A stretch of 64,000 nucleotides of DNA. Source: Bacteroides cellulosilyticus (GTDB taxonomy: Bacteria > Bacteroidota > Bacteroidia > Bacteroidales > Bacteroidaceae). A program made the translations under genes and the position numbers. The first letter of the stretch is position 1. Each line of letters starts with the position of its first letter. The stretch is taken from positions 4,154,501 through 4,218,500 of the forward strand of contig NZ_CP081903.1 in assembly GCF_020091405.1 (NCBI RefSeq), in the 5' to 3' direction. This document shows, piece after piece, positions 41,274 to 60,832 of the stretch. The notes under the pieces were generated by a model that did not search any database, was not told the DNA's origin, and was given only the letters and a program-made list of their open reading frames with translations.

Positions 41274-41305
41274 ATTAATACGAGCGAATCTGTTTATTCA
41301 CTCAA
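41274..41305 (-). promoter_or_regulatory. Putative ECF promoter before GH43-GH88 operon
   Basis: On the minus strand TTGAGTG (41305-41299), 15 bases, then TCGTATTAAT (41283-41274). It lies about 100 bases before the GH43 ATG. Confidence 0.7.
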
Positions 41306-41319
41306 TGGAATATCATATT

Positions 41320-43263
41320 TTATAATCTTTCTCCTTTGTACTTTTTATATTTCTTCATTTCCTGCCTGTCTATAGGTATCAATCTTATGGCAGCTCCACC
41401 ACTGGGCTTCAGTTGGAACTTCATGGTCTGTGAAGCATTGACAAGCAGATAAGTACATTTCACCTGTGTACTTGTTTTTATCTTTTCTCCCCCATCCGTA
41501 TAGATGCAGGCGAGGTAATTCTTTTCTTTATCGAGGAACGTGAGAGGTATTTCTTCTTCAGAACCTTCATTGTTGGTCATGGCTGCAACAAACCATTCCT
41601 GACCTTTTCGGCGTGCCATTGTTATGTTTTTGCCGGGAGCGCCATTCAATACTTTCGTATCGTCGAATACAGTTTGCAAGTTCTCAAACCATTCCATTTC
41701 CGGTTCTCCGTGATAGAACGATGGTTTGTCATACCAGAAGATAGTTTGCAGAGGGCTGTAGAACACGAGTGATGCTGCCAGTTGGTGAGCATGAGTCGTT
41801 TTCAGCCGTTTGTCGAAATAACAGATCGTATAGTCGGCTGCACCGTTTATCATACGAGTGAAGGGGAGCGTGACATTATGAGTTGCATCGGGAAATTCTT
41901 CGTTTCCACAAATGCCTTCCTGAGTTAATAAATTCGGATAAGTACGGCTGAAGCCTGAAGGGCGATATTCATCATGGATATTCATCAGCAGATGATTCTC
42001 TGCCGCCAAGCGAACCATGTCGTGCATCCAAGTTGCCCAGCGATGGCTGGCGTATTGTACGAAACCGGATTTCATTCCGACAATTCCCCATTCGCGGAGC
42101 AATGGGAAAAGTTCACGCATTTGCTTCATGAGTGCATGCTGGTTTACGTACACCCAGATACCAACTCCTTTTTCCTTACCATAAGCTATAACACGGGGCA
42201 TATCCAGTTTGGCAACCACTTTTGTGGCATCCCCGTCATGTGAAGTACAGGGCATATACCATTGCCAGTCGAAAAGCATATACGGGATATTATGTGCTGC
42301 ACAGAAGTCGATGGTTGCAATAGCTCCTTCGGTTGTGATAGTTGTTTCGCGCATAATCTTGCCTGGTTTTACCCATGCGGCGGCATCGGCAATTTCACAT
42401 GGCGGATTCAGATTCTGGATGATATCATTGTGTTCCAGCAATTCACCCGGTTTGTCGGCTGCCATGACTATCTTCCAGGGAGTGGCATAATAAGTCACTA
42501 CATCCACGGGGCTATACATTACAGAAGTCAGTGTATTCTTCTTGTCGGTGGAGGCAAGGTATTTGGTCAGACACCAGTCGTCTACATCAGCATCTGCCAA
42601 TGCCGCCCATTTACCATTCGGGAGTTCCAGCGTAAGGGCACGTTCTACCGGATGTTTGATATCATCAATGTTCAGGTACTCAAAGAAAGCCTGTGCCCAT
42701 TGTTCGGTCCATGCTTTTGTACCTGCCGGTAAGGTGTATTCTGTGAGATCACCTACTACTTTATGAAAGATAGCCTTTGGGTGTTCCGGGAAGAAATAGC
42801 GGAAAGCTACTCCTTCATTATAGGCACGCACCTCAATGTTGAGCCGGTAGCCGGAGTTATCTTTCTTGGAGAGATAAAGGGTGCCAGCCCGGTAATGATC
42901 GCGTACACTGCTACGTTCACCGTAAAGTGGCTGCCAGGTGATGTCTGTTTCGGGTTGGTAGGTCACAGAGTCCACTTCCAGATTGTCCATCCAGCAGGCA
43001 GGCTGTTTCAGGTTTCGTGCTCCCAGAGCCATTTCCCATATCCGGTTGTCCAGTTCCAGTCCGGCACGTGATTCATTGACTACAGGTTGTGATTTGTAAT
43101 CTACCCGGTAACAAAGTTCGTTTACCGCAGGTGAAACCTGCTTCTGGTAAAATGCTATTTCATGTGTTCCGTCAGGAGATGTCAGCTTCAGTTCCTTGCC
43201 ATTGTCTGCAAAGAGGGAAGGAGTGAGAACTAACATAATAATTGCTGAGCCGATAGTCTTCAT
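41320..43263 (-). CDS. GH97 glycoside hydrolase, copy 1
   Basis: A 647-residue calcium-dependent alpha-glycosidase, with signal peptide (MKTIGSAIIMLVLTPSLFA). N-terminal beta-supersandwich (about 25-270), then (beta/alpha)8 barrel with YMLFDWQWYMPCTS, REWGIVGMKSGFVQ, NIHDEYRPSGFSRTYPN and GICGNEEFPDATHNV. Retaining GH97 members carry an Asp nucleophile in a KxDF stretch; here it reads KSGF, so the enzyme is probably of the SusB-like inverting type. C-terminal beta-domain ends with MKKYKKYKGERL. Closest in the window to the copy at 60881. It is separated from the GH127 gene by a promoter-like motif. Confidence 0.93.
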   Translation of the reverse strand: MKTIGSAIIMLVLTPSLFADNGKELKLTSPDGTHEIAFYQKQVSPAVNELCYRVDYKSQPVVNESRAGLELDNRIWEMALGARNLKQPACWMDNLEVDSVTYQPETDITWQPLYGERSSVRDHYRAGTLYLSKKDNSGYRLNIEVRAYNEGVAFRYFFPEHPKAIFHKVVGDLTEYTLPAGTKAWTEQWAQAFFEYLNIDDIKHPVERALTLELPNGKWAALADADVDDWCLTKYLASTDKKNTLTSVMYSPVDVVTYYATPWKIVMAADKPGELLEHNDIIQNLNPPCEIADAAAWVKPGKIMRETTITTEGAIATIDFCAAHNIPYMLFDWQWYMPCTSHDGDATKVVAKLDMPRVIAYGKEKGVGIWVYVNQHALMKQMRELFPLLREWGIVGMKSGFVQYASHRWATWMHDMVRLAAENHLLMNIHDEYRPSGFSRTYPNLLTQEGICGNEEFPDATHNVTLPFTRMINGAADYTICYFDKRLKTTHAHQLAASLVFYSPLQTIFWYDKPSFYHGEPEMEWFENLQTVFDDTKVLNGAPGKNITMARRKGQEWFVAAMTNNEGSEEEIPLTFLDKEKNYLACIYTDGGEKIKTSTQVKCTYLLVNASQTMKFQLKPSGGAAIRLIPIDRQEMKKYKKYKGERL

Positions 43264-43286
43264 ATCTTCGTATTTATTGTTTTTAT

Positions 43287-43318
43287 ATAAATACGATTTG
43301 GAATATGAGGATACTCAA
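43287..43318 (-). promoter_or_regulatory. Putative ECF promoter before GH97 copy 1
   Basis: TTGAGTA (43318-43312), 15 bases, TCGTATTTAT (43296-43287) on the minus strand, 24 bases from the ATG. Confidence 0.75.
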
Positions 43319-43324
43319 TGTATT

Positions 43325-46285
43325 CTATCTTTTTAGGGAAATAATGTTCGAGACAGTTTGTGAAATGACAGGACTTCCAAAAAATGACGAGAAGCCATCT
43401 TCCTTTTGTGAACTTCCCTGTACATGGGCTATGAAGAATCCATATACCCGGTCCTGTTTATTGATCCATGGATAGGCGCCGGCCCAACCCGGTGAACTGA
43501 TCTGATAGGCTTCTCCTGTTGCTTTATCAATAAGTTCCCGCCATTCTCCCAAACCATATATGCCAGTATGATGTTTTTTCAGCGCACGTTCCACATATTC
43601 ACCCGGGTGAACTTCTGCATTTCCCACTTGGTCTGCTTGCATTTCATGTATGGTTTCGGGTTTCAGTATTTGCTTTTCTTCAAATACGCCATTGTGGTAG
43701 ATCATATCAAGAAAACGCATGTAGTCGTGCAAAGTGGTACAGAGACCTCCACCCAACATGGGAGCGTGTCCGCCATCTGTATTCACGGGCGTGAAGTGGG
43801 AGTTTTTCATTCTTAAAGGTCGGGCTATTAATTCCTGAAATAATTCCTCGAATTCTTTATTCATAGCTTTTTCTGCCATCCGGCCGGCTATCTGCATGGC
43901 AAGTCCACCATATTCAAAGCGGGTACCGGGAGTGAAAACCGTGTCAAGCGGAAGAATCTCCATGACTGCCGAATCCAGATGATTGTAATTGTCTACGCGT
44001 GGTTCCGGCAGATAAGGGCGGACGCCCGATGTGTGCGAAAGCAACTGACGTAAAGTAATCATTCCTTTTATGTCGTTTTTAAATTCAGGAATCCATTTCT
44101 TTACACTATCATTCCAGTCCAGTTCGGTGCAGTCTACCACTGCTCCGATTACTGCGGCGGCTACCCATTTTCCGGCAGAGGCTACATAGACTTTGGTGTC
44201 AGGGGTAAAGTTTTTGTAGTTTTTCTGAAAGATAACGCTATCGTCTCTGACTACACAGATTGAGGCTCCCGGATAGTATCCTTTATTCATCCATGAGGTG
44301 ACAATGGAGTCAAGTGGCGTAAAATCATAAGCCGCCTGCCGGTTATCGGCAGGACGGCATGATGTGAATGACAGATCCCAGTATACAACGTAACGTTGGT
44401 GATGTAAGTCATACAGTGGCTTTAAAACATTGCCCTGTGATGTTTTAAATATCAGTTCCTCGCCTGTACGCTGTAAACTGTGTCCGGGGTGTTTCCGGTC
44501 TATTTGTAAGGTGGTATTCAGTTCAGCCGGGATATGATAGTTGTAAGTATAATAGTCATTGTATAATGCCGGATCAGAGAATGGTGCCGGAGATTGCATA
44601 CCTTCTGTTCCCGCTTCACCTGCCAATACCAGCGGTCCGTATAGCAGGGCTCCCTTTTGTGGATTGTCCGGCGTTGTTTCCAGTTGCAGGCTCATCGGAT
44701 AATTGGCTTCAATGCGATCACCGTCTTTCCATTGGCGGGTTACGGCAATGTATGATCCCGGTTTCTGTTTTACCGATACTTTTTTCCCGTTGACGTTTAC
44801 TTTCACATTTTTACTCCATGATGGATAGCGCAGATAAATCGTAGTGGTGACAGGTTTGTCCGTTTGGATGGTCAATGCAGTGTTCTCTTTTGCAGGGAAA
44901 GCTGTTTCCTGGCACAGAGTTATTCCTTTCGCTCTCCAGTTTACTTCTGACGGGATAAAGAGGTTTACGTAGATTCCCTGGTCATTGTGATAATAGATAG
45001 CTTCTCCATATTTAGCATGGTTTTCGAAGCCGCTGCCTACACAACACCAAAAGGAATTCTCTCGGGTACTATAAACTTTGTGAGAGCCGGAGAGCAAAGG
45101 CAAGAAATAGGATACCATTCCCGTTTCAGGATCTTGTTGCCCAAGGATATGATTATAGAGTGCACGTTCGTAGTAATCGGCAACCTTGGCATCTCCTGTC
45201 CAGCAAAACAGGTGGCGACTGAGTTTCAGCATATTGTACGTACAACAAGTCTCACCGGTATATCCGGTCAGATGTTTGGATAATTGTTGTGGATCGAAAT
45301 AATGCTCTTTATCACTGCTGCATCCCGGTGCAAAGGTATGATGGTCTATCATGGTATGCCAGAAAAAATCAGTCAGTTTCCGACTGTCATTATCCTGCGT
45401 CAGCTCGTAGTTACGTGCTTCGGCAAGAACTTTTGGGATAAAGGTATTCGTGTGCTTGGTTCCTAAATCATCGCGTTGTTCTTTCAGCGGATCGATAACA
45501 TCATTGTGATAGAAAAATTCAGCAAGCCATTGATAACGCTCGTCGCCGGTGATGGCATAAAGATTATAGAAAGATTCGTTCACACCACCGAATTCATTCC
45601 GTATCATCCTTTTCCGGGTGGGTTCATCCAGCGGTTTAAGTTTATTATAAGCCCAGTCACCCATGCGGGTAACTACTTCCAATGCCTGTTTGTTATCTGT
45701 ATAGAGATATTGGTCGATCAATCCGGAGAAGAGCTTGTGTAATGTATACCAGGGTGCCCATACACTTGTCCCACGTATGTTCCGATTGATCAATTCTTCC
45801 GGATATGCACTGAGATACCCGTTTCCCAAAGCTGCCTGTACTTCTGCCAGACCTGTAACAAGACTGTCACCTTTCAGCTTGAATATTTCGCTTCCGGTAG
45901 ATGCGTACATGAGCGCATAGGCTGATAGTAAATGCCCTGTTGTATGTCCGCGCAGTTCGCAGTCTAGTGATTCCCAGCCGCCCAGTTTCTTTACGGTCAT
46001 ATACCCACCTTCACGTCCGGCAAATACTCCGGCGTTGTTGCGGAAACTGTGTAGCAAACGATTGGTTGCTATGGAAGTCATCCAAACAGAATCACGCATC
46101 ATATTGTCGCGAAAGCGGCTTGGTAATAAACGCACGTCTTTTAAGTCAAAACTCTCTACCTGTATCGGCGCTGTTGTCACTTTTTTCATTTTTCCGGCAT
46201 GCTGTCCGGGATAAATGGATTGAGCGGAAAGATCGGTTGATAGAACTGCACAGATTGTCATTAGGATCAAACTCTTATTTCTCAT
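43325..46285 (-). CDS. GH127 beta-L-arabinofuranosidase fused to a beta-lactamase-family serine hydrolase
   Basis: A 986-residue exported protein (signal MRNKSLILMTICAVLSTDLSAQS). Residues about 35-640 are GH127/DUF1680: (alpha/alpha)6 barrel with the Glu-Cys cluster GETCCTYNM (Cys347/348) and WCCVGSGFENHAKYGE (Cys414/415), the zinc-thiolate catalytic centre of HypBA1-type enzymes. Residues about 650-986 are a class C beta-lactamase/esterase fold with SxxK VASAGKW (Ser703, Lys706) and a YGG motif in FEYGGLAMQIAG where many relatives have YxN; the SHTSG and GGHAPMLGGG regions fit the family. The two parts could release arabinose and an ester group from the same substrate. Confidence 0.9.
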   Translation of the reverse strand: MRNKSLILMTICAVLSTDLSAQSIYPGQHAGKMKKVTTAPIQVESFDLKDVRLLPSRFRDNMMRDSVWMTSIATNRLLHSFRNNAGVFAGREGGYMTVKKLGGWESLDCELRGHTTGHLLSAYALMYASTGSEIFKLKGDSLVTGLAEVQAALGNGYLSAYPEELINRNIRGTSVWAPWYTLHKLFSGLIDQYLYTDNKQALEVVTRMGDWAYNKLKPLDEPTRKRMIRNEFGGVNESFYNLYAITGDERYQWLAEFFYHNDVIDPLKEQRDDLGTKHTNTFIPKVLAEARNYELTQDNDSRKLTDFFWHTMIDHHTFAPGCSSDKEHYFDPQQLSKHLTGYTGETCCTYNMLKLSRHLFCWTGDAKVADYYERALYNHILGQQDPETGMVSYFLPLLSGSHKVYSTRENSFWCCVGSGFENHAKYGEAIYYHNDQGIYVNLFIPSEVNWRAKGITLCQETAFPAKENTALTIQTDKPVTTTIYLRYPSWSKNVKVNVNGKKVSVKQKPGSYIAVTRQWKDGDRIEANYPMSLQLETTPDNPQKGALLYGPLVLAGEAGTEGMQSPAPFSDPALYNDYYTYNYHIPAELNTTLQIDRKHPGHSLQRTGEELIFKTSQGNVLKPLYDLHHQRYVVYWDLSFTSCRPADNRQAAYDFTPLDSIVTSWMNKGYYPGASICVVRDDSVIFQKNYKNFTPDTKVYVASAGKWVAAAVIGAVVDCTELDWNDSVKKWIPEFKNDIKGMITLRQLLSHTSGVRPYLPEPRVDNYNHLDSAVMEILPLDTVFTPGTRFEYGGLAMQIAGRMAEKAMNKEFEELFQELIARPLRMKNSHFTPVNTDGGHAPMLGGGLCTTLHDYMRFLDMIYHNGVFEEKQILKPETIHEMQADQVGNAEVHPGEYVERALKKHHTGIYGLGEWRELIDKATGEAYQISSPGWAGAYPWINKQDRVYGFFIAHVQGSSQKEDGFSSFFGSPVISQTVSNIISLKR

Positions 46286-46309
46286 AACTTTTTTATTAAT
46301 TCTTTCTTT

Positions 46310-46341
46310 ATATATACGAAGTAGAGGGATATATTACTCAA
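46310..46341 (-). promoter_or_regulatory. Putative ECF promoter before GH127
   Basis: TTGAGTA (46341-46335), 15 bases, TCGTATATAT (46319-46310). 25 bases to the ATG. Flanks resemble the site at 48837. Confidence 0.8.
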
Positions 46342-46387
46342 AAACCCGTTAGAGGAATTTAAAACTGTATAGCGAGCTATTTTCCTA

Positions 46388-46462
46388 TTACGACTGAAGG
46401 CATTTCCCACTACGACTGAAGGCACTTCCCACTACGACTGAACTCGTGTTTCACTACAACTG
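46388..46462 (+). repeat. 22-bp tandem array, four units, core TACGACTGAA (copy 2)
   Basis: The word ACGACTGAA starts at 46390, 46412 and 46434, with a fourth, changed form (ACAACTGA) at 46456: an exact 22-base period. Spacers contain TTCCCACT. Same period and core as the array at 5591. Confidence 0.9.
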
Positions 46463-46554
46463 ATCTTAGTGAAACATCAAGTGTATTGTCACACAGGTAG
46501 TTATGCTTTTTGATGCACTCCTATATAGCTCACATCAGGAAAGAAAGGAATGAA

Positions 46555-46630
46555 GTTACGAGCTACAGGCTACAAGTGCCTTTCGGAACATAGCGCAGCT
46601 ACTTGTAGCTTGTAGCCTGTAGCTCGTAAC
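46555..46630. repeat. GTAGC-rich inverted repeat (REP-like element, copy 2)
   Basis: Perfect 21-bp arms 46555-46575 and 46610-46630 (ending GTAGCTCGTAAC), spacer with GTGCCTTTCGG and ATAGCGCAGCTACTTGTAGC. It is related, in opposite orientation, to 28224-28327 and probably ends the heparinase-like transcript. Confidence 0.85.
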
Positions 46631-46664
46631 TGATTCATATCCCTATAGAAATGAACTAGTCTTG

Positions 46665-48809
46665 TCAGCGGATTACTTTATATTTTTTAGTGTAAGAATC
46701 GAAAATGGATTCATTAGCATTGCGCACATAACTCCCATATCCGATGAACCATTCCGATATGTTTTTGGAAACTGCGGGGTCAGTTCCTTTCTTATAAGAA
46801 AAAGCAAGTAAATATGCGTCTGTATCCCAACCGTTCACATTTGTGCAGGAATTCCGGTGCATAATATGCCCATCTGCCCGTGTGTTTAAATAAACATCAG
46901 TTATTTTGTCACCTTTAGCAATACGGACACCTTGCAGATCATCTCCTTTCAGGCGGGTTACCTGAGGAATATTTTTACTTGCAGGAGAATCTTTCAAGAT
47001 GATTGCCGTTATAAACTTGACACTTTGTGCCTTTATCGGATAGGTTATCGAATAATACGTTTCCATTTCGTCGGTCTTCTTAGCTTTGGGACCCTGGTGA
47101 GCTTTCAGTTTCAGATTATAAGGGAAATCATGTTCGAAGTCGCTTTCTGTCAGATAGTCCGGCCATAAAGGGCGTATATCCACAGCAGCCTGTTGGTTGA
47201 CGACACTCAAATCAATACCATTTTTCCTGCTTACTCCATCCGGGTGAAAAAGCAGACTGAATGTACCGTCTTCATGCGAACAGACATCATCAATAACCAG
47301 TATTACATCATCTATCCACAAAAAACTACGGTGGTTTTTAGAAAAGTAGCGGGAAGTAGGCCCGGTCACGTTGGCCAGGATGTATTTGATATTTCCTTCG
47401 TCTGTAAGATGATGCAAAGAACCATCGAGCATCGAACCTTTGTACTGTTGCTCTTGAGGCTGGGCCTGTCCATTAAACAACAGTACATTATGGGCCTGGC
47501 TGTGGAAGAAATATTCACGATACCACGGATTGGGATACCAACAGTTTCCGCCATCCTTAATTACTTGCTGTCCATTATGAAAAAGGATAAATGAACCTGC
47601 GTCTGCATGAGAGTGATTCCATGTATGTCCGCATTTCACTCCTAACAGGGTTGTGTTTTTCTCCCAAGAAGTACGCATCACACTCCAACCCATTCTTTCA
47701 TATACCGTAGATAGCGACAGGGAAGGTTGCGGTGGAGCCGCAGATAAATCGGGAGTGTACAATAACCCCATGGGTGTATCGGTCGGCATACTTTCTTTGG
47801 CCTGGTTTTTCCGTACCTGTGTGAGATACCATAACATATCGGTTTTCTGAAAACCTAATGTCCAAAGTAATTTCAAGACTCCTTCACCATTGGCAGCAAT
47901 GTTGCTGTCGCCAAAATAAAGGGAAGGAAGATAATCACTGTCGGCAGGATAACAGGTATACATAAAATAATCTGCTGCACGTTCAAATAGCTTCCTTTCT
48001 GGCCATTCTGCCCGGGGATTGAAATTCTGCATGGCAAGGCGGAAGGTCAGGTATTGGGTGAGCCCGTAATTGGCGTAACTCACACTTTCGTAATAAGCTC
48101 CATTATCGAAGTTAGCCGGTTTGTTTTGTAAGATATCTCCTTGGAAATTAGCCCAATCCGTTGTTGCCCTACTTACCATATCAATCCATTCGGCAGCCTC
48201 GGGAATTTCATTGCTGACGGCCATGGCAGCGATTCCGGTCATGGCAATACAGGATGCCCAATAGTTGTGCCCCATGGAATTGATTGCATGGAAACGTGTT
48301 GCCGGTGATAGCCAATCGTGCAGCGTCGGACGGATTCCTATTTTGTAAATGGCTTGTGCCAGTTCTTTCCGTTCTTCATCTGAGAGTTCGTTATAGATAG
48401 CATCGAAACCGATAGCCATTTGATGATTGGCATGGGCGGTGCTTAGCAATGAAGTCCAGGCAGGTTCCCGATTCAGCATATCCTTTGCTTCGAGGGTTTC
48501 TTTTCCACCTGTCTGCCGGATTGATTCTTTGATCTTATCCGCATATCTTTTTTCGCCTGTCACCTGGTATGTCAATGCCAGATATTCCAACTTGCGGTAA
48601 GGATTGTTTTCTTTCAAGGCTTCCCTGGCTACTTGTTCTACCTGGGTATAATTGGCTTTGACTTCTTTATCCGATTTGAGTTGTTCTTTCAGTGTTGCTA
48701 TCCGATCGGGGGTAAAGAACAGATAGGGGTGTTGTTGCTGCGCCCGGATTGAGAAAACCAGGGAACAAAACAGAATGAGCGTCAGTACATGTTTTCTTTT
48801 ATTTCTCAT
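46665..48809 (-). CDS. Heparinase II/III-like polysaccharide lyase
   Basis: A 714-residue exported lyase (signal MRNKRKHVLTLILFCSLVFSIRAQ). Residues about 25-350 form the alginate-lyase-like (alpha/alpha) toroid, including INSMGHNYWASC with the His/Tyr pair. Residues about 370-640 are the heparinase II/III beta-sandwich, opening CGHTWNHSHADAGSF, with AHNVLLFNGQ. Such enzymes cleave uronic-acid polysaccharides by beta-elimination, making the substrate of GH88. The exact polysaccharide is not given by the sequence. Its promoter overlaps the stop codon of the upstream lyase gene. Confidence 0.88.
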   Translation of the reverse strand: MRNKRKHVLTLILFCSLVFSIRAQQQHPYLFFTPDRIATLKEQLKSDKEVKANYTQVEQVAREALKENNPYRKLEYLALTYQVTGEKRYADKIKESIRQTGGKETLEAKDMLNREPAWTSLLSTAHANHQMAIGFDAIYNELSDEERKELAQAIYKIGIRPTLHDWLSPATRFHAINSMGHNYWASCIAMTGIAAMAVSNEIPEAAEWIDMVSRATTDWANFQGDILQNKPANFDNGAYYESVSYANYGLTQYLTFRLAMQNFNPRAEWPERKLFERAADYFMYTCYPADSDYLPSLYFGDSNIAANGEGVLKLLWTLGFQKTDMLWYLTQVRKNQAKESMPTDTPMGLLYTPDLSAAPPQPSLSLSTVYERMGWSVMRTSWEKNTTLLGVKCGHTWNHSHADAGSFILFHNGQQVIKDGGNCWYPNPWYREYFFHSQAHNVLLFNGQAQPQEQQYKGSMLDGSLHHLTDEGNIKYILANVTGPTSRYFSKNHRSFLWIDDVILVIDDVCSHEDGTFSLLFHPDGVSRKNGIDLSVVNQQAAVDIRPLWPDYLTESDFEHDFPYNLKLKAHQGPKAKKTDEMETYYSITYPIKAQSVKFITAIILKDSPASKNIPQVTRLKGDDLQGVRIAKGDKITDVYLNTRADGHIMHRNSCTNVNGWDTDAYLLAFSYKKGTDPAVSKNISEWFIGYGSYVRNANESIFDSYTKKYKVIR

Positions 48810-48836
48810 AATTTCTTTGTTAATTCTTTTTTTAGT

Positions 48837-48868
48837 ATATATACGAAGGAGAGAAATATATTACTCAA
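48837..48868 (-). promoter_or_regulatory. Putative ECF promoter before heparinase-like gene, overlapping a stop codon
   Basis: TTGAGTA (48868-48862), 15 bases, TCGTATATAT (48846-48837). The TGA in TTGAGTA is the stop codon (48867-48865) of the upstream lyase gene. Confidence 0.8.
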
Positions 48869-50463: not shown

Positions 50464-50510
50464 ATTCTTAAAATAATAAGGTTAATACATATTAGATAGA
50501 AGTCAATATG

Positions 50511-50542
50511 TATATAGCGTATTTACGTACCGATTTACCTAA
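50511..50542 (-). promoter_or_regulatory. Weaker ECF-like promoter before alginate-lyase gene
   Basis: TTAGGTA (50542-50536), 15 bases, ACGCTATATA (50520-50511). Spacing and CG placement fit the other sites, but two positions of the first element and the CGT differ. Confidence 0.45.
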
Positions 50543-50691
50543 AGCGGCATCGCACTTTTTAGTTTAATTATAAAAAACAATTCTACGTATAATGCATCAT
50601 GAGATTAAACTAAGTTTTAGTGAGCAAAACTATACATTCTATCAAATAAATCATTAAGTTTGTCGGACTTCTTAGTAATAATAAGGGGAAA

Positions 50692-53526
50692 ATGATTGAT
50701 TTTTATGAATGTATGAAAGACACATATTACTATATAGGGAGAGTTATTCAATTCGCCATTCATTATTTGTTTATGGCGATAATGTTGTTGTTGCCATTAT
50801 CTCTGTATTCAATCCAACAGTCTCCTGTTTTTCGTTCTGTAACTGTATCTGAAGGTTTATCCCATAATACGATAAATGCTATATATAAGGATACCCGTGG
50901 TTTCGTATGGTTAGGAACACAGATGGGATTGGATCGTTTTGATGGGGTAAATGTGACGACTTATCCTCAATTTTCCGGGAGAACTGTTTTTTCGATAGCA
51001 GAGACTGATTCTGTAAATTTATGGGTGGGTACAGATATAGGATTGATAAAGTTTAATCGTAAGACAGAGACGGTTGAACCGATTGCTTTAGATGGCAAAT
51101 CTTTGTCTGTAAAAGTGGTTTTCGTGAGTAAGAAGGGGAAATTACTACTTGGTAGTTCACGTGGATTATTTCTGTATGAAAGTGGTGTATTCAGAAAGAT
51201 TCTGCTGGACTCCAATGCCTTGTCTGCTGTGAATGGCCTAATGGATATTGTAGATGGAGAGGATGATAGTGTTTGGATTGCTTCAAATGGAGGATTGATC
51301 CATTATAATATGGAAACTGGAAGATCACGAGTGTTTGAGAATAATATTAGAGGAGGATTAAATTACTATAACTGTCTGGCTTTAATGGGCAATACTATTT
51401 ATTTAGGTACGGCAAACCAGGGCATGCTGAAGTTTGATATTGGGCAGGAAGTTTTCTCCATATATCCGCAAATAGGTAATGGATGTATTAAGGATTTGGT
51501 ACCTGTAGGTAATGATACATTGTATGTAGGAATCAATGGAAGTGGTGTCAAAATTATAAAAGCATCTTCCGGACAAGAAATAACGTCAATAGAACATTCT
51601 ATACAGGAAGATGCCATTTGTTCGAATGCTGTTTATTCATTACTGAAAGATAAAAATATCCTTTATATCGGTACTTACATGGGTGGAATGAGTTATACGC
51701 CTACGCGTGGGAATACCTTTTCCATCTATGCTTTTAAGGATAAATTTGATTCCCATAATCTGAATGTGCGTGGGTTCTGGATTGGTAAACAAGGGCGAAA
51801 AGTAATAGGTACCCGTGACGGACTTTATTATATTTCCGAAGAAGAGAATATAGTGAAACATTACACTATAAAATCTTCGATATTACGTTCGGATATTATT
51901 TTGTCGGTTAAACCTTTGGGAGAAGATTATTTGATAGGAACTTATGGTGGTGGCATGTATTTGCTGCATGCAGAGACGGGTAAACTGTCTTTTTTTAAAC
52001 CGGATGATTGCTTCAGGCAAAATTCATTTACCGGATGTGAAAGAGATAAAGAAGGCAAGTACTGGATAGGGAGTTCTTATGGGGTGTATGTTTATAATGA
52101 ATTGACCGGACAGTATGTAAATTACAATAATAGAAATTCGTCTCTTGCCATAAATTCAATATTTACTTTAAAAGCTGATTCAAAGGATAGGATCTGGATA
52201 GGAGCGAATGGAGCTGTTTTTTTGTATGATATGTCAACCGGTACTTTCAAGTCGGATGTATTTCCTGAACATATAGAACCGTTTACAAAAAGCATACGGT
52301 ATATTTATGAGGATAATCATAAAAATCTATGGTTTTGTGACGATAAAGAGGGAGTTGTTAAAGTTGATGAGCATTTTACTAAATTTGAGCATCTGACAGT
52401 TGATGATTTCCTTCCCAATAATTCGGTCATGAGTATTATTGAAGATCCGCATGATGGAGGACTGTGGTTTAGTACACAACGTGGTTTACTGTATATCAAA
52501 GATAATCATCACAAGATTTTCTCTCTTTATGATGGCATTCCCGGATACATATTTAATAACCCTGTACAGATTACAGATGATGGCTCTATTTGGTGGGGCA
52601 ATGAAAGGGGATTAGTAAAATATACTTCTCAGCCTAAACATGAAAGAAAGGTGATTCCATTACCTCCTGCCATTACATCAGTAGCTGTTGCTGGTAGAAT
52701 CCTTCAGACGGGAGATGAATTGTTGCCTTTTTCTTCTTCATTTATGGAGAAGATCTCTTTGCCTGCAGATAAGAATAATATTGCATTTACGTTTTCTGCC
52801 TTGAATTATGCTGTTGTGAATACGGATATCTATGAATATTTTTTGGAAGGGTATGATAAGGAATGGTTGACTTTGATGAAAGGCAATCAAGTAGCCTATA
52901 CGAATCTTCCAGTTGGCAACTATGTTTTTAAAGTAAGGGCGGCGTCTAATCCGGGTGCGGTTATGGCGGTTAAGGTGGAAGTTGTACGGGGACTTTCTTT
53001 CACCTTATGGATGGTGGTACTTTGTTTTTTAACATGTTTGGTACTGCTCTATAGCTATTACGCTTTGCTGGGTAAATATAGAAAAATGAAAGAGGGTATG
53101 CGTGAGAATACAGTACAAGTCGAAGGAGTACAGAAGGAGAAGTATCAGAAATCCAGGGTGGATGAAGAAGTGGTATCACGGATAAAACAAAGGTTAACAG
53201 AATGTATGAATAAGGATAAGATGTATCTGAATCCGGATTTGAAGTTGCAGGATGTAGCGAATACTATTGGCTGCAATACGGGAGATTTGTCACAGGTTCT
53301 AAATTTATATTTGAATATAAACTTTACCGATTATATCAACCAATATCGTGTGGAAGAATTTATTATCCGCGTGCAGGATAAATCAGCTTCCAAATATACT
53401 TTGGCGTTTCTTTCTGAGCAGTGTGGATTTAGCTCCCGGACATCTTTTTTCCGTTCATTTAAGAAATTGAAGGGTAAATCACCTGCAGAGTATATTAAGG
53501 AGAAAGATATCATTTTAGAAATATAA
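50692..53526 (+). CDS. Propeller-type membrane sensor fused directly to an AraC DNA-binding domain
   Basis: A 944-residue membrane regulator. Hydrophobic N-terminus (FAIHYLFMAIMLLLPLSLYS), then repeats of the two-component propeller (about 45-660; e.g. IYKDTRGFVWLGTQMGLDRFDG), a Y_Y_Y domain (about 670-760), one membrane helix (FTLWMVVLCFLTCLVLLYSYY), a coiled coil and a C-terminal AraC-type HTH (about 840-940; LKLQDVANTIGCNTGDLSQVL; FLSEQCGFSSRTSFFRSFKKL). Ordinary hybrid two-component PUL regulators have a kinase and receiver between membrane and HTH; here neither exists. Ligand binding outside must reach the HTH without phosphotransfer. Start could be 50692 or a nearby Met. Confidence 0.9.
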   Translation: MIDFYECMKDTYYYIGRVIQFAIHYLFMAIMLLLPLSLYSIQQSPVFRSVTVSEGLSHNTINAIYKDTRGFVWLGTQMGLDRFDGVNVTTYPQFSGRTVFSIAETDSVNLWVGTDIGLIKFNRKTETVEPIALDGKSLSVKVVFVSKKGKLLLGSSRGLFLYESGVFRKILLDSNALSAVNGLMDIVDGEDDSVWIASNGGLIHYNMETGRSRVFENNIRGGLNYYNCLALMGNTIYLGTANQGMLKFDIGQEVFSIYPQIGNGCIKDLVPVGNDTLYVGINGSGVKIIKASSGQEITSIEHSIQEDAICSNAVYSLLKDKNILYIGTYMGGMSYTPTRGNTFSIYAFKDKFDSHNLNVRGFWIGKQGRKVIGTRDGLYYISEEENIVKHYTIKSSILRSDIILSVKPLGEDYLIGTYGGGMYLLHAETGKLSFFKPDDCFRQNSFTGCERDKEGKYWIGSSYGVYVYNELTGQYVNYNNRNSSLAINSIFTLKADSKDRIWIGANGAVFLYDMSTGTFKSDVFPEHIEPFTKSIRYIYEDNHKNLWFCDDKEGVVKVDEHFTKFEHLTVDDFLPNNSVMSIIEDPHDGGLWFSTQRGLLYIKDNHHKIFSLYDGIPGYIFNNPVQITDDGSIWWGNERGLVKYTSQPKHERKVIPLPPAITSVAVAGRILQTGDELLPFSSSFMEKISLPADKNNIAFTFSALNYAVVNTDIYEYFLEGYDKEWLTLMKGNQVAYTNLPVGNYVFKVRAASNPGAVMAVKVEVVRGLSFTLWMVVLCFLTCLVLLYSYYALLGKYRKMKEGMRENTVQVEGVQKEKYQKSRVDEEVVSRIKQRLTECMNKDKMYLNPDLKLQDVANTIGCNTGDLSQVLNLYLNINFTDYINQYRVEEFIIRVQDKSASKYTLAFLSEQCGFSSRTSFFRSFKKLKGKSPAEYIKEKDIILEI

Positions 53527-53534
53527 CTTCCTGA

Positions 53535-53570
53535 AAAGAGTACCAAAATAATTTGGTACTCTTTCTTTTT
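53535..53570 (+). terminator. Terminator after membrane AraC regulator
   Basis: Perfect 13-bp stem AAAGAGTACCAAA with TTTGGTACTCTTT, then CTTTTTAT. Confidence 0.9.
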
Positions 53571-53654
53571 ATATAATTAAAATATTGAAATATAGCTATT
53601 TATTGAGAAACTCGTTTCAGCCTTTAGGTTGGTACCTATTACACTTCTCAGAAT

Positions 53655-53685
53655 GTCTGAAAAGAATTTCAACTTACTAATTTTG
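53655..53685 (+). promoter_or_regulatory. Housekeeping-type promoter of GH88-sigma operon
   Basis: -33 TCTG (53655-53658) and exact -7 TAATTTTG (53678-53685), 19 bases apart; about 43 bases before the ATG. The ECF motif found elsewhere in the PUL is not present here. Confidence 0.6.
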
Positions 53686-53727
53686 TTGTCGTTGAAATCA
53701 ATTTGTTCATTTAAAAAGTGCTATATC

Positions 53728-54948
53728 ATGAAACACAAAACCATTCTTTTGCTTGCTTCTTTATTTGTAGTGGGAATTGCTTGTAAGCAATTCAACCGGG
53801 AATTTTCAGTAAATACCAATATTGATTATTGTGAGACCCAGGCTTTACGTACATTGGCCATTGTTCCTTCTGGCTCAGAAGGAGGTATTCCTAACTCGAT
53901 CGATGGAGATGATGTTAATTGGCATTTCACCAGTCCCGGTTCATGGACTTCAGGTTTCTGGCCTGGTATTCTTTGGTATTTATATGAGAATACAAAGGAT
54001 AATATGTGGAAAGTTGCAGCTGAAAACTATACTCAAAAGATTCTTCCTGTAACTCACAGAAAAGCAAGGAGCCATGATATGGGATTCATTACGATGTGTA
54101 GTTTGGGCAATGGATATCGTTTGACGGGTAATACGGAATATAAAGAAGGATTATTACGTGCTGCTGATTCTCTTTCTGTTCTGTTTAATTCCGAAGTTGG
54201 TACTTTTCTGTCATGGCCGGGTATGGTGAGAAAGGAAAATTGGCCTCATAATACTATTATTGATAATATGATGAATCTTGAGCTGCTATTCTGGGCTGCC
54301 CGAAACGGGGGAGAACGCCGTCTATATGATATGGCGTGTGAGCATGCCGATACTACAATGAAATATCAGTTTCGCAAAGATTATTCATGCTATCATGTTG
54401 CCGTATATGACACGATTACCGGACATTTTATAAAAGGTGTGACTCATCAAGGACTGAGCGATAACTCCATGTGGGCACGTGGGCAAGCATGGGCTATTTA
54501 TGGTTATACTATGGTATATCGTGAAACGGGAGAAGTGCGCTTTCTGAACTTTGCCCGAAAAGTAGCAGATGCTTATTTATCCCGTTTACCGGAGGATTTA
54601 ATTCCTTATTGGGATTTTGATGCTCCCGATTTGTCTTCTGGAGAACCTAAAGATGCTTCCGCAGCGGCTATTACAGCTTCTGCTTTACTGGAACTTTCTA
54701 CTTATGTAACCGAGCGTGACTCTTCACATTATTACTATGACCAGGCAGAAAAGATGCTTGAAGTGTTATCATCTTCTGCTTATAAGGCAGGAGATACAAA
54801 ATATGCTTTTCTGTTACATTCGGTAGGTCATATGCCTCGTGGTGGAGAAGTTGATGCATCCATTATTTATGCAGACTATTATTATCTTGAAGCATTAATC
54901 CGTTTTAAGAGATTACAAGAGAAACGTTCTATACTGGCTAATTTATAA
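53728..54948 (+). CDS. GH88 unsaturated glucuronyl hydrolase, copy 2, lipoprotein
   Basis: A 406-residue lipoprotein (MKHKTILLLASLFVVGIAC; lipobox Cys). The frame is open from 53629 but the ATG at 53728 begins the lipoprotein signal. Family segments: PGSWTSGFWPGILWY, NTIIDNMMNLELLFWAARNG, HQGLSDNSMWARGQAWAIYGY. It parallels the copy at 38288, at the opposite end of the PUL, with clear similarity throughout. Followed after 23 bases by the ECF sigma gene, so both are made from one transcript. Confidence 0.93.
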   Translation: MKHKTILLLASLFVVGIACKQFNREFSVNTNIDYCETQALRTLAIVPSGSEGGIPNSIDGDDVNWHFTSPGSWTSGFWPGILWYLYENTKDNMWKVAAENYTQKILPVTHRKARSHDMGFITMCSLGNGYRLTGNTEYKEGLLRAADSLSVLFNSEVGTFLSWPGMVRKENWPHNTIIDNMMNLELLFWAARNGGERRLYDMACEHADTTMKYQFRKDYSCYHVAVYDTITGHFIKGVTHQGLSDNSMWARGQAWAIYGYTMVYRETGEVRFLNFARKVADAYLSRLPEDLIPYWDFDAPDLSSGEPKDASAAAITASALLELSTYVTERDSSHYYYDQAEKMLEVLSSSAYKAGDTKYAFLLHSVGHMPRGGEVDASIIYADYYYLEALIRFKRLQEKRSILANL

Positions 54949-54971
54949 ATATTTCCTTAATCTTATCTATT

Positions 54972-55517
54972 ATGAATACACAATTGATGATTGCCGGATA
55001 TTGTCCGGTTGGAAATTATTCTTTCGAGATAATTTATAAAAAGTATCACACTTTTTTCGTGCACTATGCTGAAAAAACAATGGGAGAGGAATTGTATGCT
55101 GAAGATGTTGTACAAGATGTATTTATCAATTTGCTACAGCAGACTAATTATTTTGTATCGGAAGGTGCAGTATTGAAATACATCTACAAAGCGCTTTATA
55201 ACCGCTGTATTGATTTTATACGTCATAAGCAAATAGAACAGCATTATGAAGAAGTCTCTGGAAATGACTTTATATCTGCATTGAATAGAGATGGGCACAA
55301 TACTCTTTTGACAAAAGAATTTTTTGTAATAGTAGAAAATCGTATAAAAGGGTTACCTCCTAAATGCAAACAGATATTTGTAATGAAGTATAAGAATGAG
55401 TATTCTAATCCGGAAATCAGCGAAAAGTTAGGATTATCGATACGAACAGTAGAGAATCAAATATATATTGCCCGCAACGTGTTACGAGAATATGTGGATT
55501 CTTATCTATGTTCCTAA
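54972..55517 (+). CDS. ECF sigma factor without anti-sigma partner
   Basis: A 181-residue sigma-70-type protein of the extracytoplasmic-function group. Region 2 (about 25-95: FEIIYKKYHTFFVHYAEKTM, EDVVQDVFINLLQQ) and region 4 (about 125-175: GLPPKCKQIFVMKYKNEYSN, SEKLGLSIRTVENQIYIARN). Region 3 is absent as expected for ECF. In Bacteroides PULs, such genes usually precede a FecR-type anti-sigma gene and a SusC with an N-terminal signalling domain; here susC follows directly and no anti-sigma gene is present. It probably directs the PUL promoters listed in this annotation. Confidence 0.92.
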   Translation: MNTQLMIAGYCPVGNYSFEIIYKKYHTFFVHYAEKTMGEELYAEDVVQDVFINLLQQTNYFVSEGAVLKYIYKALYNRCIDFIRHKQIEQHYEEVSGNDFISALNRDGHNTLLTKEFFVIVENRIKGLPPKCKQIFVMKYKNEYSNPEISEKLGLSIRTVENQIYIARNVLREYVDSYLCS

Positions 55518-55542
55518 AAAAATAGCGAAAATTATCTTTTGT

Positions 55543-55574
55543 TTGAGTGAATGAAAGTTTATTCCCGTTTAATC
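55543..55574 (+). promoter_or_regulatory. Putative ECF promoter before susC
   Basis: TTGAGTG (55543-55549), 15 bases, CCGTTTAATC (55565-55574). 61 bases to the ATG at 55636. The sigma gene ends 25 bases upstream. Confidence 0.75.
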
Positions 55575-55635
55575 TATGTTCATTGAAGATATATTGACTA
55601 AATAATTAAATGTGATTTTTTATGTTAAACTTAAA

Positions 55636-58600
55636 ATGCATGCTATGAATAAGAAAGACAAATTCTTTATGCTTTTAGCATTGTCCTGTTTGCCATTAAG
55701 TGAAATGGCTGCGGAACAAGCGGATGGTATGGCTGCATCTCCTATAACTCAGGAGGTATTGCAGAATTCGGTTAAAATTACCGGAAAGGTAGTGGATGTT
55801 CAAGGAGAACCGGTTATTGGTGCTACAGTAATGGAAAAAGGTACCACCAATGGTATCATTACAGATGTTGACGGTAGCTTTACATTAAATGTTTCTCCCA
55901 ACCGGAAATTACAGGTTTCGTATGTCGGTTATCAGACTCAGGAAATTACAATTGGCTCCAATCGTACGTTGAGAATAACTTTGAAAGAGGACTCTGAATT
56001 GCTGGATGAAGTTGTGGTAGTAGGGTATGGTACGATGAAGAAATCAGATTTGACAGGTGCGGTATCCTCCGTTTCTACTCAGGACTTAATGAGAAGTGGT
56101 AGAACGGATGCGGTAGGGGCTATGCAGGGAGCTTTACCGGGTGTACAAATCCAGCGTTCGAATAATAAACCGGGTGGTGAATATAATATTCTGATCCGTG
56201 GCTTGAATACAATTAGCGGGAGCACGTCTCCTTTAATAGTGGTAGATGGCGTACCAGGTGCATCTTTATCTAATCTGAATCCAGATGATATCGAAAAAAT
56301 AGATATTCTAAAAGATGCGTCGTCTACAGCAATCTATGGTTCCCGTGCCACTAATGGTGTGGTAATGGTTACTACCAAAAGAGGAAAGATAGGTAAAGTG
56401 AAAATTGACTATAGCGGTTATGCCGGATATAGGAAATATACCAATATGCCCGATATGATGTCCGGTGAAGAATATGTGCAGTTGGCGCGAGAGGCGAAGA
56501 GAGCTGGAAATAATAATGAATATGTGGATGATAGTCAAATTTTTACAGCCTCAGAATTGAAGGCCATTCAGGATGGTAACTATTTTGATTGGGTGGATGC
56601 GGTTTCCACGCCGGCCTTTATGACGAATCATACCATATCGGCTACCGGAGGTAATGAAATGGCTACTTACGCCTTGTCTGCCGGATATTATTTTGAAAAT
56701 GGTATGCTGGAGCCTCAGGAATATTCCCGTTATAATCTTCGGGCAGTGGTAGATGTAGAGCCTAGTAAATACATGAAATTTGGTATTAATATGTATGGAA
56801 CCCATTCTGTACGTGATACCGGTAATTCGGACCTGTTGCAGGACGCTTTCCGTTTACGTCCTACTTATCATCCGACTGACTTGGTGACAGGGGAGGAAAT
56901 GTGGGCTTATTCCAATGGCCAATATAATGCGTTGACTACCATGAAGAATGAACTGAATAAAACAAAGAAATACAATCTGTTAAGCAATATTTACTTAGAA
57001 GTCACTCCTGTGAAGGGATTGACATTGAAAACTACTTTCTCTCCGGATATAAATCTGGAGGAGATCGGTCAGTACAGAGGTAAATATACGAAGGCTAATA
57101 AGGGACAAAATAAGGCAACCAGTAATTATGCGAAAAACAGTTATGTGGATTGGGTTTGGGATAATCTTGTGAATTATAATTTTCAGTTGAAAGATCATCG
57201 TGTTGATTTGACCGGAGTATTTTCGATGCAGCAGTCACAGGATGAGAAGTTGAAAGGAATTGGCAATGGATTGTCATATAATTCTTTGTGGTACAATTTG
57301 GCTGGGGGATCGGCAAGCAATACTTCTTCTTCAGGTTTTACCAAAACAAATTTGATGTCCTATCTGGCACGTGCCAATTATGTGTACAAGGACAAGTATT
57401 TTCTGACTGCAAGTATCCGTTTGGATGGTTCGTCAAAATTGGCGGAAGGTAATAAATGGGGAAGTTTTCCATCGGCTGCCGTGGCATGGAGAGTGTCGGG
57501 GGAAGAATTTATGAAGAGTCTGTCTTGGTTGAGCAATTTGAAGTTACGTTTGAGTTATGGTCAGACTGGTAATGATAATGTAAGTGCATATCAGACACAG
57601 GGCTCTATTAGCGGTGCTAACTATTATACATTTGGTTCAAGCGAGTCTATCGGCTATGTTCCCAATAATTTGCGGAATCTGGATTTAGGGTGGGAACGTA
57701 CTACAGAGTATAATGTGGGCATTGACTTCGGATTATTGAATAATCGTATTTCAGGTAGTGTGGAATATTATAATCGTTTGACAGAAGATTTGATTATGAA
57801 TAAGACGGTGCCTGTTACTACCGGCTATTCTTCTGTGAAAGCGAATGTGGGATCTGTCAGAAATGAAGGTTTCGAAGTAAACATTCATTCAGATAATATC
57901 CGTACCAAAGATTTCTCATGGAGAACCAGTCTGAACTTTGCCTATAACAAAAATAGGATTGTAGATTTGCAATATAAGGAAGATCTGACTTCCCGTGGAC
58001 AATCTTTAGCAGGAATGAGTGGTGACTACAGTAATCTTTGGATTATCGGTCAGCCTATTGATATAAATTACAATTTGATGACATTGGGAGTATGGCAGTT
58101 GGACGAAGCCGAAGAAGCAGCTAAATATGGTTGTAAGCCGGGACAATATAAACCGTTAGACTTGAATGATGATGGTGTGATTGATGATAAAGACCGTGTG
58201 ATTGATGGTAAACGTACTCCGGATTGGACAGGTGGTATGACTAATACATTTACATACAAGGAATTCGATCTGTCATTTCAAGCGGCCTTCCAAGCGGGAG
58301 CAAGAGCTAGAAACCAGTTTTATGTTTCGTATGCATTGGAAAACAACAATCTCAATTTTAATAACTTAAGAAAAGATTATTGGACTCCGGAGAATCCGAC
58401 CAATGCTTCTGCACAGCCTAGCAACATGGGTACTTATCGGAGTAAAGCAGGATCATGGGGGAATGCGAAGTCAGAGATGTCGCATACGATGTTCTCCAGT
58501 GATTTTCTTAAAATCTCATATATTACTTTGGGATATACTTTCAAGCCGTCAGTTCTTGAAAAAATGAAATTAGGTAATTTGCGTCTATATGCAACTGTTC

Positions 58601-58722
58601 AGAATCCATTTATTTTTTGTGCAAAGGATGTGGTTGATCCTGAACAGTTGAATGTCAGTATCAATACATCGGATGCAATGACTCGAAATGTGATTTTCGG
58701 TATTAATTTATCATTCAAATAA
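55636..58722 (+). CDS. SusC-family TonB-dependent outer-membrane transporter
   Basis: Takes up oligosaccharides across the outer membrane together with SusD, powered by TonB. Domains: signal region (about 1-28), carboxypeptidase-regulatory-like domain (about 45-120; VKITGKVVDVQGEPVIGATV), plug with DEVVVVGYGTMKKSDLTGAV, and the 22-strand barrel ending VIFGINLSFK. The STN signalling domain seen in ECF-linked SusC proteins is missing. The frame is open from a GTG at 55612; ATG at 55636 or 55645 is more likely. Operon with susD, 10 bases apart. Confidence 0.95.
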   Translation: MHAMNKKDKFFMLLALSCLPLSEMAAEQADGMAASPITQEVLQNSVKITGKVVDVQGEPVIGATVMEKGTTNGIITDVDGSFTLNVSPNRKLQVSYVGYQTQEITIGSNRTLRITLKEDSELLDEVVVVGYGTMKKSDLTGAVSSVSTQDLMRSGRTDAVGAMQGALPGVQIQRSNNKPGGEYNILIRGLNTISGSTSPLIVVDGVPGASLSNLNPDDIEKIDILKDASSTAIYGSRATNGVVMVTTKRGKIGKVKIDYSGYAGYRKYTNMPDMMSGEEYVQLAREAKRAGNNNEYVDDSQIFTASELKAIQDGNYFDWVDAVSTPAFMTNHTISATGGNEMATYALSAGYYFENGMLEPQEYSRYNLRAVVDVEPSKYMKFGINMYGTHSVRDTGNSDLLQDAFRLRPTYHPTDLVTGEEMWAYSNGQYNALTTMKNELNKTKKYNLLSNIYLEVTPVKGLTLKTTFSPDINLEEIGQYRGKYTKANKGQNKATSNYAKNSYVDWVWDNLVNYNFQLKDHRVDLTGVFSMQQSQDEKLKGIGNGLSYNSLWYNLAGGSASNTSSSGFTKTNLMSYLARANYVYKDKYFLTASIRLDGSSKLAEGNKWGSFPSAAVAWRVSGEEFMKSLSWLSNLKLRLSYGQTGNDNVSAYQTQGSISGANYYTFGSSESIGYVPNNLRNLDLGWERTTEYNVGIDFGLLNNRISGSVEYYNRLTEDLIMNKTVPVTTGYSSVKANVGSVRNEGFEVNIHSDNIRTKDFSWRTSLNFAYNKNRIVDLQYKEDLTSRGQSLAGMSGDYSNLWIIGQPIDINYNLMTLGVWQLDEAEEAAKYGCKPGQYKPLDLNDDGVIDDKDRVIDGKRTPDWTGGMTNTFTYKEFDLSFQAAFQAGARARNQFYVSYALENNNLNFNNLRKDYWTPENPTNASAQPSNMGTYRSKAGSWGNAKSEMSHTMFSSDFLKISYITLGYTFKPSVLEKMKLGNLRLYATVQNPFIFCAKDVVDPEQLNVSINTSDAMTRNVIFGINLSFK

Positions 58723-58732
58723 TTAGGATAAT

Positions 58733-60559: not shown

Positions 60560-60583
60560 GTATAACAGATGACTGATATTTAG

Positions 60584-60617
60584 AGGACTATCTTCATTTG
60601 TGAAGATAGTCCTTCTT
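60584..60617 (+). terminator. susCD terminator
   Basis: Perfect 13-bp stem AGGACTATCTTCA with TGAAGATAGTCCT and a 4-base loop, then TCTTCCC. The following 200 bases hold no gene. Confidence 0.9.
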
Positions 60618-60800
60618 CCCATTTTCTCTTTTACTTTGTTTTATCTTTACCTCTTGGACTTCCAATTATAAGATAAACATCAATACGGAAAAGAGATAAA
60701 TATATCTAAGGTTCCTTTAAAAAGTATGTTTTTGTACTTTTATCTCTCCAGACCGTCCGAGAATACATATAAAAGAAAAAGGAATTTAAATCTTTCTGTA

Positions 60801-60832
60801 TTGAGTAAAAACAACCCGCTATACGTCTTTTA
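60801..60832 (+). promoter_or_regulatory. Putative ECF promoter before GH97 copy 2
   Basis: TTGAGTA (60801-60807), 15 bases, ACGTCTTTTA (60823-60832). 48 bases to the ATG. Confidence 0.7.

Follow-up and report, generated by a model that had tools for sequence, protein, structure and literature searches.

The locus described here raises two questions: which promoter does an extracytoplasmic function (ECF) sigma factor encoded in a polysaccharide utilization locus (PUL) recognize, and what controls it when no anti-sigma gene stands next to it? The locus lies in a 64,000-nucleotide stretch of Bacteroides cellulosilyticus DNA (the window, G000:C1:4154501-4218500, in a genome of one 6.94-Mb contig). 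Its PUL comprises, on the minus strand, genes for GH88, GH43, GH97, a GH127 and beta-lactamase-family fusion (GH, glycoside hydrolase), a heparinase II/III-like protein, and an alginate-lyase-like enzyme, and on the plus strand, genes for REG, a second GH88, the sigma factor ECF1, SusC, SusD, and a second GH97. REG resembles a hybrid two-component system (HTCS) protein that lacks a kinase. HTCS and ECF/anti-sigma pairs are the recognised PUL switches (PMC3878776, PMC3243724, PMC11501099), and of the 50 ECF sigma factors of Bacteroides thetaiotaomicron, almost half belong to PULs (PMC12596196). A 2013 paper described the prediction of ECF-controlled promoters as a challenge that needs start-site data (PMC3878776), and according to a 2020 paper, the ECFs of B. 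thetaiotaomicron were all without a known recognition motif (PMC7366714). The evidence below is, taken as a whole, probably best explained by a cascade in which REG would switch on the ECF gene and the ECF protein would in turn switch on a regulon of genes preceded by TTGAGT-N17-CGT.

Six strict sites of the form TTGAGT-N17-CGT(N)TWW stand before six of the 12 PUL genes, every one on the coding strand. The distances run from the end of CGT to the ATG:

41280..41305, minus strand: putative promoter site before the GH43-GH88 pair, 105 nt
43293..43318, minus strand: putative promoter site before GH97, 29 nt
46316..46341, minus strand: putative promoter site before the GH127/beta-lactamase fusion gene, 30 nt
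48843..48868, minus strand: putative promoter site before the heparinase II/III-like gene, 33 nt
55543..55568, plus strand: putative promoter site before susC, 67 nt (ATG at 55636)
60801..60826, plus strand: putative promoter site before the second GH97, 54 nt

The putative targets behind these sites are as follows:

39525..41174, minus strand: GH43, with GH88 behind it at 38288-39511
41320..43263, minus strand: GH97
43325..46285, minus strand: GH127 with a beta-lactamase-family domain
46665..48809, minus strand: heparinase II/III-like gene
55636..58722, plus strand: susC, with susD behind it at 58733-60559
60881..62812, plus strand: second GH97

In a blind search of all pairs of a 6-mer and a 3-mer separated by N13-20 within the 150 nt preceding each of the 12 PUL genes, TTGAGT-N17-CGT was the best word, found before six of the 12, and the best words of 100 dinucleotide shuffles reached two genes (15 shuffles), three (81), or four (4). 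The search recovered the same motif independently in genome G432 and, as TGAGTG-N16-CGT, in G293. The site before GH43 has the same spacing and place in G432, G293, G249, G327, G333, and G433, and across the genus border the spacers have diverged while the motif is conserved. The motif is real and above chance. It is extremely improbable that upstream sequences were merely copied between neighboring genes, or match by chance, with no common promoter: the promoters at 46316 (GH127) and 48843 (heparinase-like) are near-identical copies around the motif and may reflect a local duplication, but the spacers of the other sites are unrelated, and the blind search with its shuffles and the conservation across genera amid diverged spacers speak against this explanation. 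As a separate observation on the two copies, the heparinase-like gene is missing in G327 (4044790), where the GH127 promoter looks by eye like a hybrid of both, an arrangement consistent with deletion by recombination between them.

A preliminary description of the window had listed seven sites. Its coordinates for the six strict sites were right to within a few bases; the seventh, placed at 50511, lacks TTGAGT, and we rejected it as a full member:

50517..50542, minus strand: weak, doubtful site, best read as TTAGGT-N17-CGC, before the alginate-lyase-like gene
48865..50463, minus strand: alginate-lyase-like gene, without a strict site

The same place reads TTAGGT-N17-CGT in G432 and TTAGGT-N17-CGC in G433, and has no CG in G327. 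The consensus given in that description, as written, has one exact match in the window and, at zero to two mismatches, recovers exactly the six sites; at three mismatches it is not enriched (19 matches against 14.4 +/- 4.2 expected, with 15 of 100 shuffles reaching 19) and was discarded as a search tool.

Across the whole genome, the bare core TTGAGT-N17-CGT has 53 matches against 49 for the reversed control and was rejected for genome-wide use; because it is at background, the core needs an extended -10 or an upstream context. The extended core TTGAGTN17CGTNTWW has 15 matches against 11 for the reversed control, and 10 of the 15 fall inside one 66-kb stretch of the 6.94 Mb (binomial probability ~2e-17, for a stretch chosen after seeing the matches). 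Six of the ten are the sites of the window, three resemble promoter sites and lie outside it (genome positions 4219102, 4222842, and 4261889), and the last, at 4240596, falls within the coding sequence of a susC. At 4234994, TTAAGT-N17-CGTAT is a near match that precedes a further gene; in G293 and G249, relatives of this gene carry strict sites. The regulon thus appears larger than the window showed, because promoter-like sites also lie beyond it, and with the extended -10, the earlier expectation of a genome-wide scan hitting only this PUL holds approximately. The gene behind the site at 4219102 has an in-frame stop after 47 codons, followed in the same frame by a 489-residue open stretch; it spans 62937-64550, past the window edge (genome 4217437-4219050). 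Elsewhere in the genome, TTGAGTAATAGTTGTAGAACCCTCGTATTT at G000 3893006 recurs identically in G261, G310, and G447 (four times in G447) and probably belongs to a mobile element that contains a match by chance.

The form of the sites points to an ECF promoter. In a survey of 20 regions (picked for ECFs or sites, near-identical strains among them) that considered open reading frames (ORFs) of at least 250 aa, 69 of the 80 TTGAGT-Nk-CGT pairs with a spacing of 17 lie upstream of an ORF, and every other k from 8 to 28 gives 0-7. An apparent k=13 class (10 matches) was rejected: nine are k=17 sites with an additional CGT four bases earlier. The 69 sites represent 62 distinct sequences, 39 after clustering at 80% identity, and lie 13-127 nt before the ATG. 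In the pooled sites, for which TTGAGT and CGT were required, the first letter after CGT is A in 72% and the second is T in 90%. Two conserved blocks with a fixed spacing of 15-18 nt and a CGT-type -10 are features expected of an ECF promoter, and the motif shows them; its two blocks are not repeats of each other. In Flavobacterium psychrophilum, a CGT -10 box has been interpreted as the sign of an ECF promoter (PMC9723704). By sequence, the solved protein closest to ECF1 is Bacillus SigW (E 7e-10), and the sigma-W consensus is TGAAAC-N16,17-CGTA(T) (PMC2375139). Because the CGT ends 13-35 nt before the ATG in 42 of the 69 sites, there is little room for a downstream promoter. Of 65 site genes, 5 carry the housekeeping (sigma-ABfr) -7 box TAnnTTTG in the interval from CGT to ATG; it overlaps the CGT itself in four of them and stands clear of it in one (1/65). 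Among other ORFs, 82 of 281 have the box within a fixed 120-nt window, the windows compared being of unequal length. We consider it very likely that the TTGAGT-N17-CGT sites are ECF promoters, and the preliminary assignment to this class stands on the fixed spacing, the place near the ATG with few -7 boxes, and the likeness to sigma-W promoters.

The motif could also be an operator bound by the AraC-type helix-turn-helix (HTH) of REG; transcription would then start from a housekeeping promoter downstream, and the ECF would have other targets. REG and the ECF co-occur wherever the contig reaches, which fits REG equally well, and known HTCS sites are likewise two-part with a long spacer (PMC3878776). 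Those known sites are direct repeats, however (PMC3878776), unlike the two halves of the motif; the short distance behind the CGT, with its single non-overlapping -7 box, leaves such a promoter hardly any space; and a different element, described below, is shared by the promoters of the REG-linked ECFs and is placed as an activator site would be. For these reasons we regard REG as quite an unlikely reader of the motif.

If an ECF reads the sites, ECF1 is the candidate to which their distribution points. ECF1 orthologues (E <= 1e-30) are rare, being found in 3 of 301 genomes of a family-wide draw, 9 of 158 of the own genus, and 4 of 61 of a second genus, g13, where identity is about 61%. ECF1 is 99% identical to a protein in B. 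cellulosilyticus DSM 14838, and a scan of named relatives returned only DSM 14838 plus two weak ECF matches of about 28-30%. The four g13 genomes with ECF1 have 13, 12, 9, and 6 extended sites, against a mean of 1.09 and a maximum of 8 in the 57 without it (Mann-Whitney p 3e-4; reversed-pattern control p 0.46); four of those eight are one repeated word. High counts in G431 (15) and G447 (8) looked contrary but were set aside, 12 and 4 of them being identical copies of one word and probably mobile elements. Within ~41 kb near the ECF lie 7 of the 13 sites of G293 and 6 of the 12 of G249. The own genus gives a less clean picture: its genomes with ECF1 have 15, 10, 8, 6, 5, 5, 3, 1, and 1 matches, and G327 (11), G433 (9), and G333 (7) are site-rich without an ECF1 match because the same or related PULs are present. 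A site precedes the susC near the ECF in 9 of 13 ECF1-bearing genomes; the exceptions are G249, whose susC is not beside the ECF, G392, of which only 1.5-kb flanks were seen, and G365 and G363, which have none. The link to the ECF gene at 54972 proposed in the preliminary description is therefore supported by co-occurrence across the genus border, and we consider ECF1 the likely reader of the sites in its own genome.

The motif is nevertheless not private to ECF1, because it is shared with PULs of a second REG-linked lineage, ECF2, in genomes where no ECF1 was found. Such genomes, with best ECF matches of at most 34% and REG2-ECF2-susC modules, are G308, G313, G334, G327, and G333; G314 has only REG2 in the stretch read. 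In all six, these sites precede GH97, GH127, and further genes. In four of the six, a TTGAGT site lies ~120 nt before the REG2 match (G308 1493646, G334 51336, G313 4010213, and G314 99438), which suggests feedback on the sensor. We also considered a single group of REG-linked ECFs and rejected it: in the tree, ECF1 and ECF2-4 are each grouped (100/100) but stand apart on long branches. Two explanations offer themselves: the two ECF lineages may have a common promoter specificity, or the motif may be read by a single factor yet to be named. The sites could accordingly be real ECF promoters read mainly by the ECF2 lineage or by a third factor, with ECF1 accessory or restricted to a private subset. 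The sites in these ECF1-less genomes fit such a division, as does the adjacency of the own-genome site at 4261889 to the ECF2 module, and overlapping ECF regulons are known (PMC9723704). Against it, the 57 ECF1-less g13 genomes, which were sorted by ECF1 alone, are at background site numbers, so that no general factor appears to use the motif there; in the own genome, strict promoter sites number six in the ECF1 PUL, one (4261889) in the ECF2 PUL, and none in the ECF4 PUL; and the sites follow ECF1 into the second genus. We judge this alternative unlikely and retain ECF1 as the probable reader in its own genome.

The question of control turns on the three genes that precede susC:

50692..53526, plus strand: REG, kinase-less HTCS-like membrane regulator (domains and hydropathy)
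53728..54948, plus strand: GH88-like lipoprotein gene, likely the first of a GH88-ECF operon
54972..55517, plus strand: ECF1, ECF sigma factor of the TIGR02985 family (Pfam, NCBIfam, and neighbors)

REG consists of a Reg_prop propeller, a YYY domain, a hydrophobic stretch at about 762-794, and an AraC-type HTH, and the solved sequences nearest to it are the HTCS sensor chains 4a2l and 3v9f. Pfam models detected no HisKA, HATPase, or receiver domain in four ECF-linked REGs. The own genome encodes 14 REG-like proteins at E <= 1e-30, of which nine are full HTCS of 1301-1422 aa and five lack kinase and receiver; the REGs measure 923-944 aa. Four of the five kinase-less proteins are encoded near an ECF (three directly beside it, that of the window with GH88 between), compared with none of the nine full HTCS within 5.3 kb of the gene, a difference with an exact probability of 5/1001 (calculated by hand). 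The order REG-GH88-ECF is kept in 9 of 11 regions, the contig ending before REG in the other two; REG was matched in two pieces in G249 and G450. We infer that REG, unlike an HTCS, acts on the ECF gene.

The sequence between REG and the GH88-ECF pair offers a route for such control:

53538..53561, plus strand: terminator-like hairpin with a T-rich stretch behind it, separating REG from the GH88-ECF pair
53620..53638, plus strand: candidate element for REG binding, resembling AATAGGWTGRAAT in consensus, 55-56 bp before the -7 box
53678..53685, plus strand: TAATTTTG, -7 box of the sigma-ABfr type, upstream of the GH88-ECF pair

Given the gap of 23 nt between them, GH88 and the ECF gene likely form one operon. 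The start of GH88 was re-assigned to the ATG at 53728, a conserved lipoprotein start, from the TTG at 53629, which is probably wrong because the first 33 codons would then cover the -7 box along with a portion of the putative operator. The statement of the preliminary description that the ECF gene has a housekeeping promoter holds in modified form, with the box TAATTTTG standing before the GH88 gene that precedes the ECF. TAnnTTTG is found upstream of GH88-ECF1 exactly in six of nine genomes and with one mismatch in three, and upstream of ECF2 exactly in nine of nine, some of these regions being near-identical; ECF3 and ECF4 also have one. A AATAGGWTGRAAT-like element begins 55-56 bp before the -7 box in 11 ECF1 and ECF2 loci (patterns taken from the alignment). 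With a leave-group-out matrix, all 11 non-redundant ECF1-4 loci rank in the top 1.3% of 757 TAnnTTTG windows (rank p 0.001-0.013), background windows that may include further copies; the ECF3 element fits worst, with a score of -1.0. We posit that this element is the operator bound by REG, and consider it reasonably likely that REG controls the ECF through it and the sigma-ABfr promoter.

An anti-sigma factor would be the usual alternative point of control. ECF1 contains only Pfam Sigma70_r2 and r4_2 and scores 133.9 bits against TIGR02985 (cutoff 126.4), with ECF2 just below at 122.6. Pfam detected no FecR among the 12 PUL ORFs, the search for an anti-sigma factor covering neither ORFs under 100 aa nor distant genes. 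The gene after the ECF is a susC, AlgL, or GH97 match in 10 of 11 regions and an 82-codon ORF in G249. By comparison, 10 neighbors of other ECFs in the genome, selected by their size from 26 loci, were tested, and every one is FecR. The window SusC has no STN signaling domain in Pfam, which found CarbopepD_reg_2, CarboxypepD_reg, and Plug only. Few Bacteroidetes ECFs (6%) have a class I anti-sigma factor nearby, a figure for which FecR-type proteins may be counted elsewhere (PMC7406223). We lean toward an ECF that works without any anti-sigma factor.

We hypothesize that REG, a membrane-spanning one-component sensor equivalent to an HTCS without a phosphorelay, would sense a periplasmic oligosaccharide; the enzyme set suggests a uronic-acid-bearing plant glycan as inducer. 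REG would then activate the sigma-ABfr promoter before the GH88-ECF pair through the element 55-56 bp upstream of the -7 box. With no FecR-type anti-sigma encoded beside it, the newly made ECF protein would switch on the dispersed regulon, its holoenzyme reading TTGAGT-N17-CGT(A/T)T as a -35/-10 promoter. ECF1 would transcribe the structural PUL genes in this way, and in some genomes a REG-linked paralogue may be able to read the same promoter. Whether these features add up to a third PUL control design is a broader claim that we only just favor: a one-component membrane sensor would act via a housekeeping promoter on an ECF that has no anti-sigma factor, and the amount of ECF alone would drive a dispersed multi-PUL regulon from TTGAGT-N17-CGTAT, shared by two lineages, with cross-talk between PULs and positive feedback on some REG genes.

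Several observations weigh against the cascade, and we are cautious on their account. Co-occurrence alone cannot tell REG from the ECF as reader of the motif, because both travel together. REG-ECF pairing is incomplete, because the fifth kinase-less REG-like protein (genome 706936; 706897-709680; L179 6897-9680; 927 aa) has no ECF within 5.3 kb; it may act on its own targets directly. The extent of the anti-sigma search belongs here as well, as does the fact that the upstream element was defined after the alignment had been viewed. No strict site was found before the alginate-lyase-like gene, and none in the 10.8-10.9-kb contigs of the most diverged ECF1 loci, G365 and G363 (47-49% identity). 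The ECF1 and ECF2 lineages are about 30% identical and do not form one tree group, yet the motif is common to both. The 50 kb read for the ECF4 module contain no exact TTGAGT site; only five near matches with one mismatch occur there, and its genes are not preceded by any of them. In G327 the ECF1 cassette is gone and enzyme genes 97-100% identical keep their sites; sites can therefore outlive ECF1 or be served without it. G249 keeps its sites although its ECF1 (L083, 4012728-4013270) has one in-frame TAG near the C-terminus.

Two further observations concern the composition of the PUL. The GH127/beta-lactamase-family (serine hydrolase) fusion at 43325-46285 was matched by two separate pieces in G293 and G249. 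The window SusC (55612-58722) is 68% identical to the SusC of DSM 14838 (L079, L088), 76% over the first 467 residues, while REG and the ECF are 98-99% identical to their counterparts there; by this comparison the PUL is a mosaic.

Comparative genomics alone thus yields a sharp promoter, a small listable regulon, and a defined regulator pair, which makes it testable what a PUL ECF reads and how it is controlled without a neighboring anti-sigma factor, and possibly provides an orthogonal promoter/sigma pair for work in gut Bacteroides. In a 2025 study of 39 ECF knock-downs, a non-significant motif resembling a known non-canonical promoter was obtained for one PUL-acting ECF (PMC12596196). We found no paper describing the TTGAGT/CGT motif or a pair of kinase-less REG and FecR-free ECF in the open-access literature, as far as its accessible passages go, which is weak evidence of novelty. 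What appears to be new is this pair and its promoter; the sensor-to-ECF cascade, HTCS, and ECF/anti-sigma systems were already known.

SigW is paired with an RsiW-like anti-sigma factor, and none was seen beside ECF1. When the motif is read as TGAGTR-N16-CGTAT, it has the same spacer and CGTAT -10 as the sigma-W promoters of B. subtilis and a -35 that likewise begins with TGA, but its -35 ends in GTR rather than AAC, and phylum and regulon differ. The SM6 promoters of F. psychrophilum also have a CGT -10 box taken as ECF-dependent; they differ in serving type IX secretion system genes and in having an ECF with an anti-sigma factor among their targets (PMC9723704). PorXY-SigP of Porphyromonas gingivalis is, like the proposed cascade, a sensor system of Bacteroidota that acts via an ECF, but it has a separate kinase and response regulator, controls secretion genes, has a different proposed motif, and works by direct binding of PorX to SigP (PMC4800418). 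HTCS share with REG the periplasmic propeller and YYY sensor and the C-terminal HTH (PMC3243724, PMC3878776), unlike REG in that the nine HTCS of this genome have all three of the phosphorelay domains that it lacks. The PUL systems of the ECF/FecR type (BT1877/BT1876, PUL24) likewise place the ECF gene beside susC/susD (PMC11501099); here, by contrast, there is no FecR beside the ECF, the SusC has no detected STN, and a kinase-less sensor-regulator stands in their place. In PUL24, 5' ends that lacked a housekeeping motif prompted the suggestion of an ECF promoter (PMC11501099), whereas in the present system the motif of the promoter can be spelled out.

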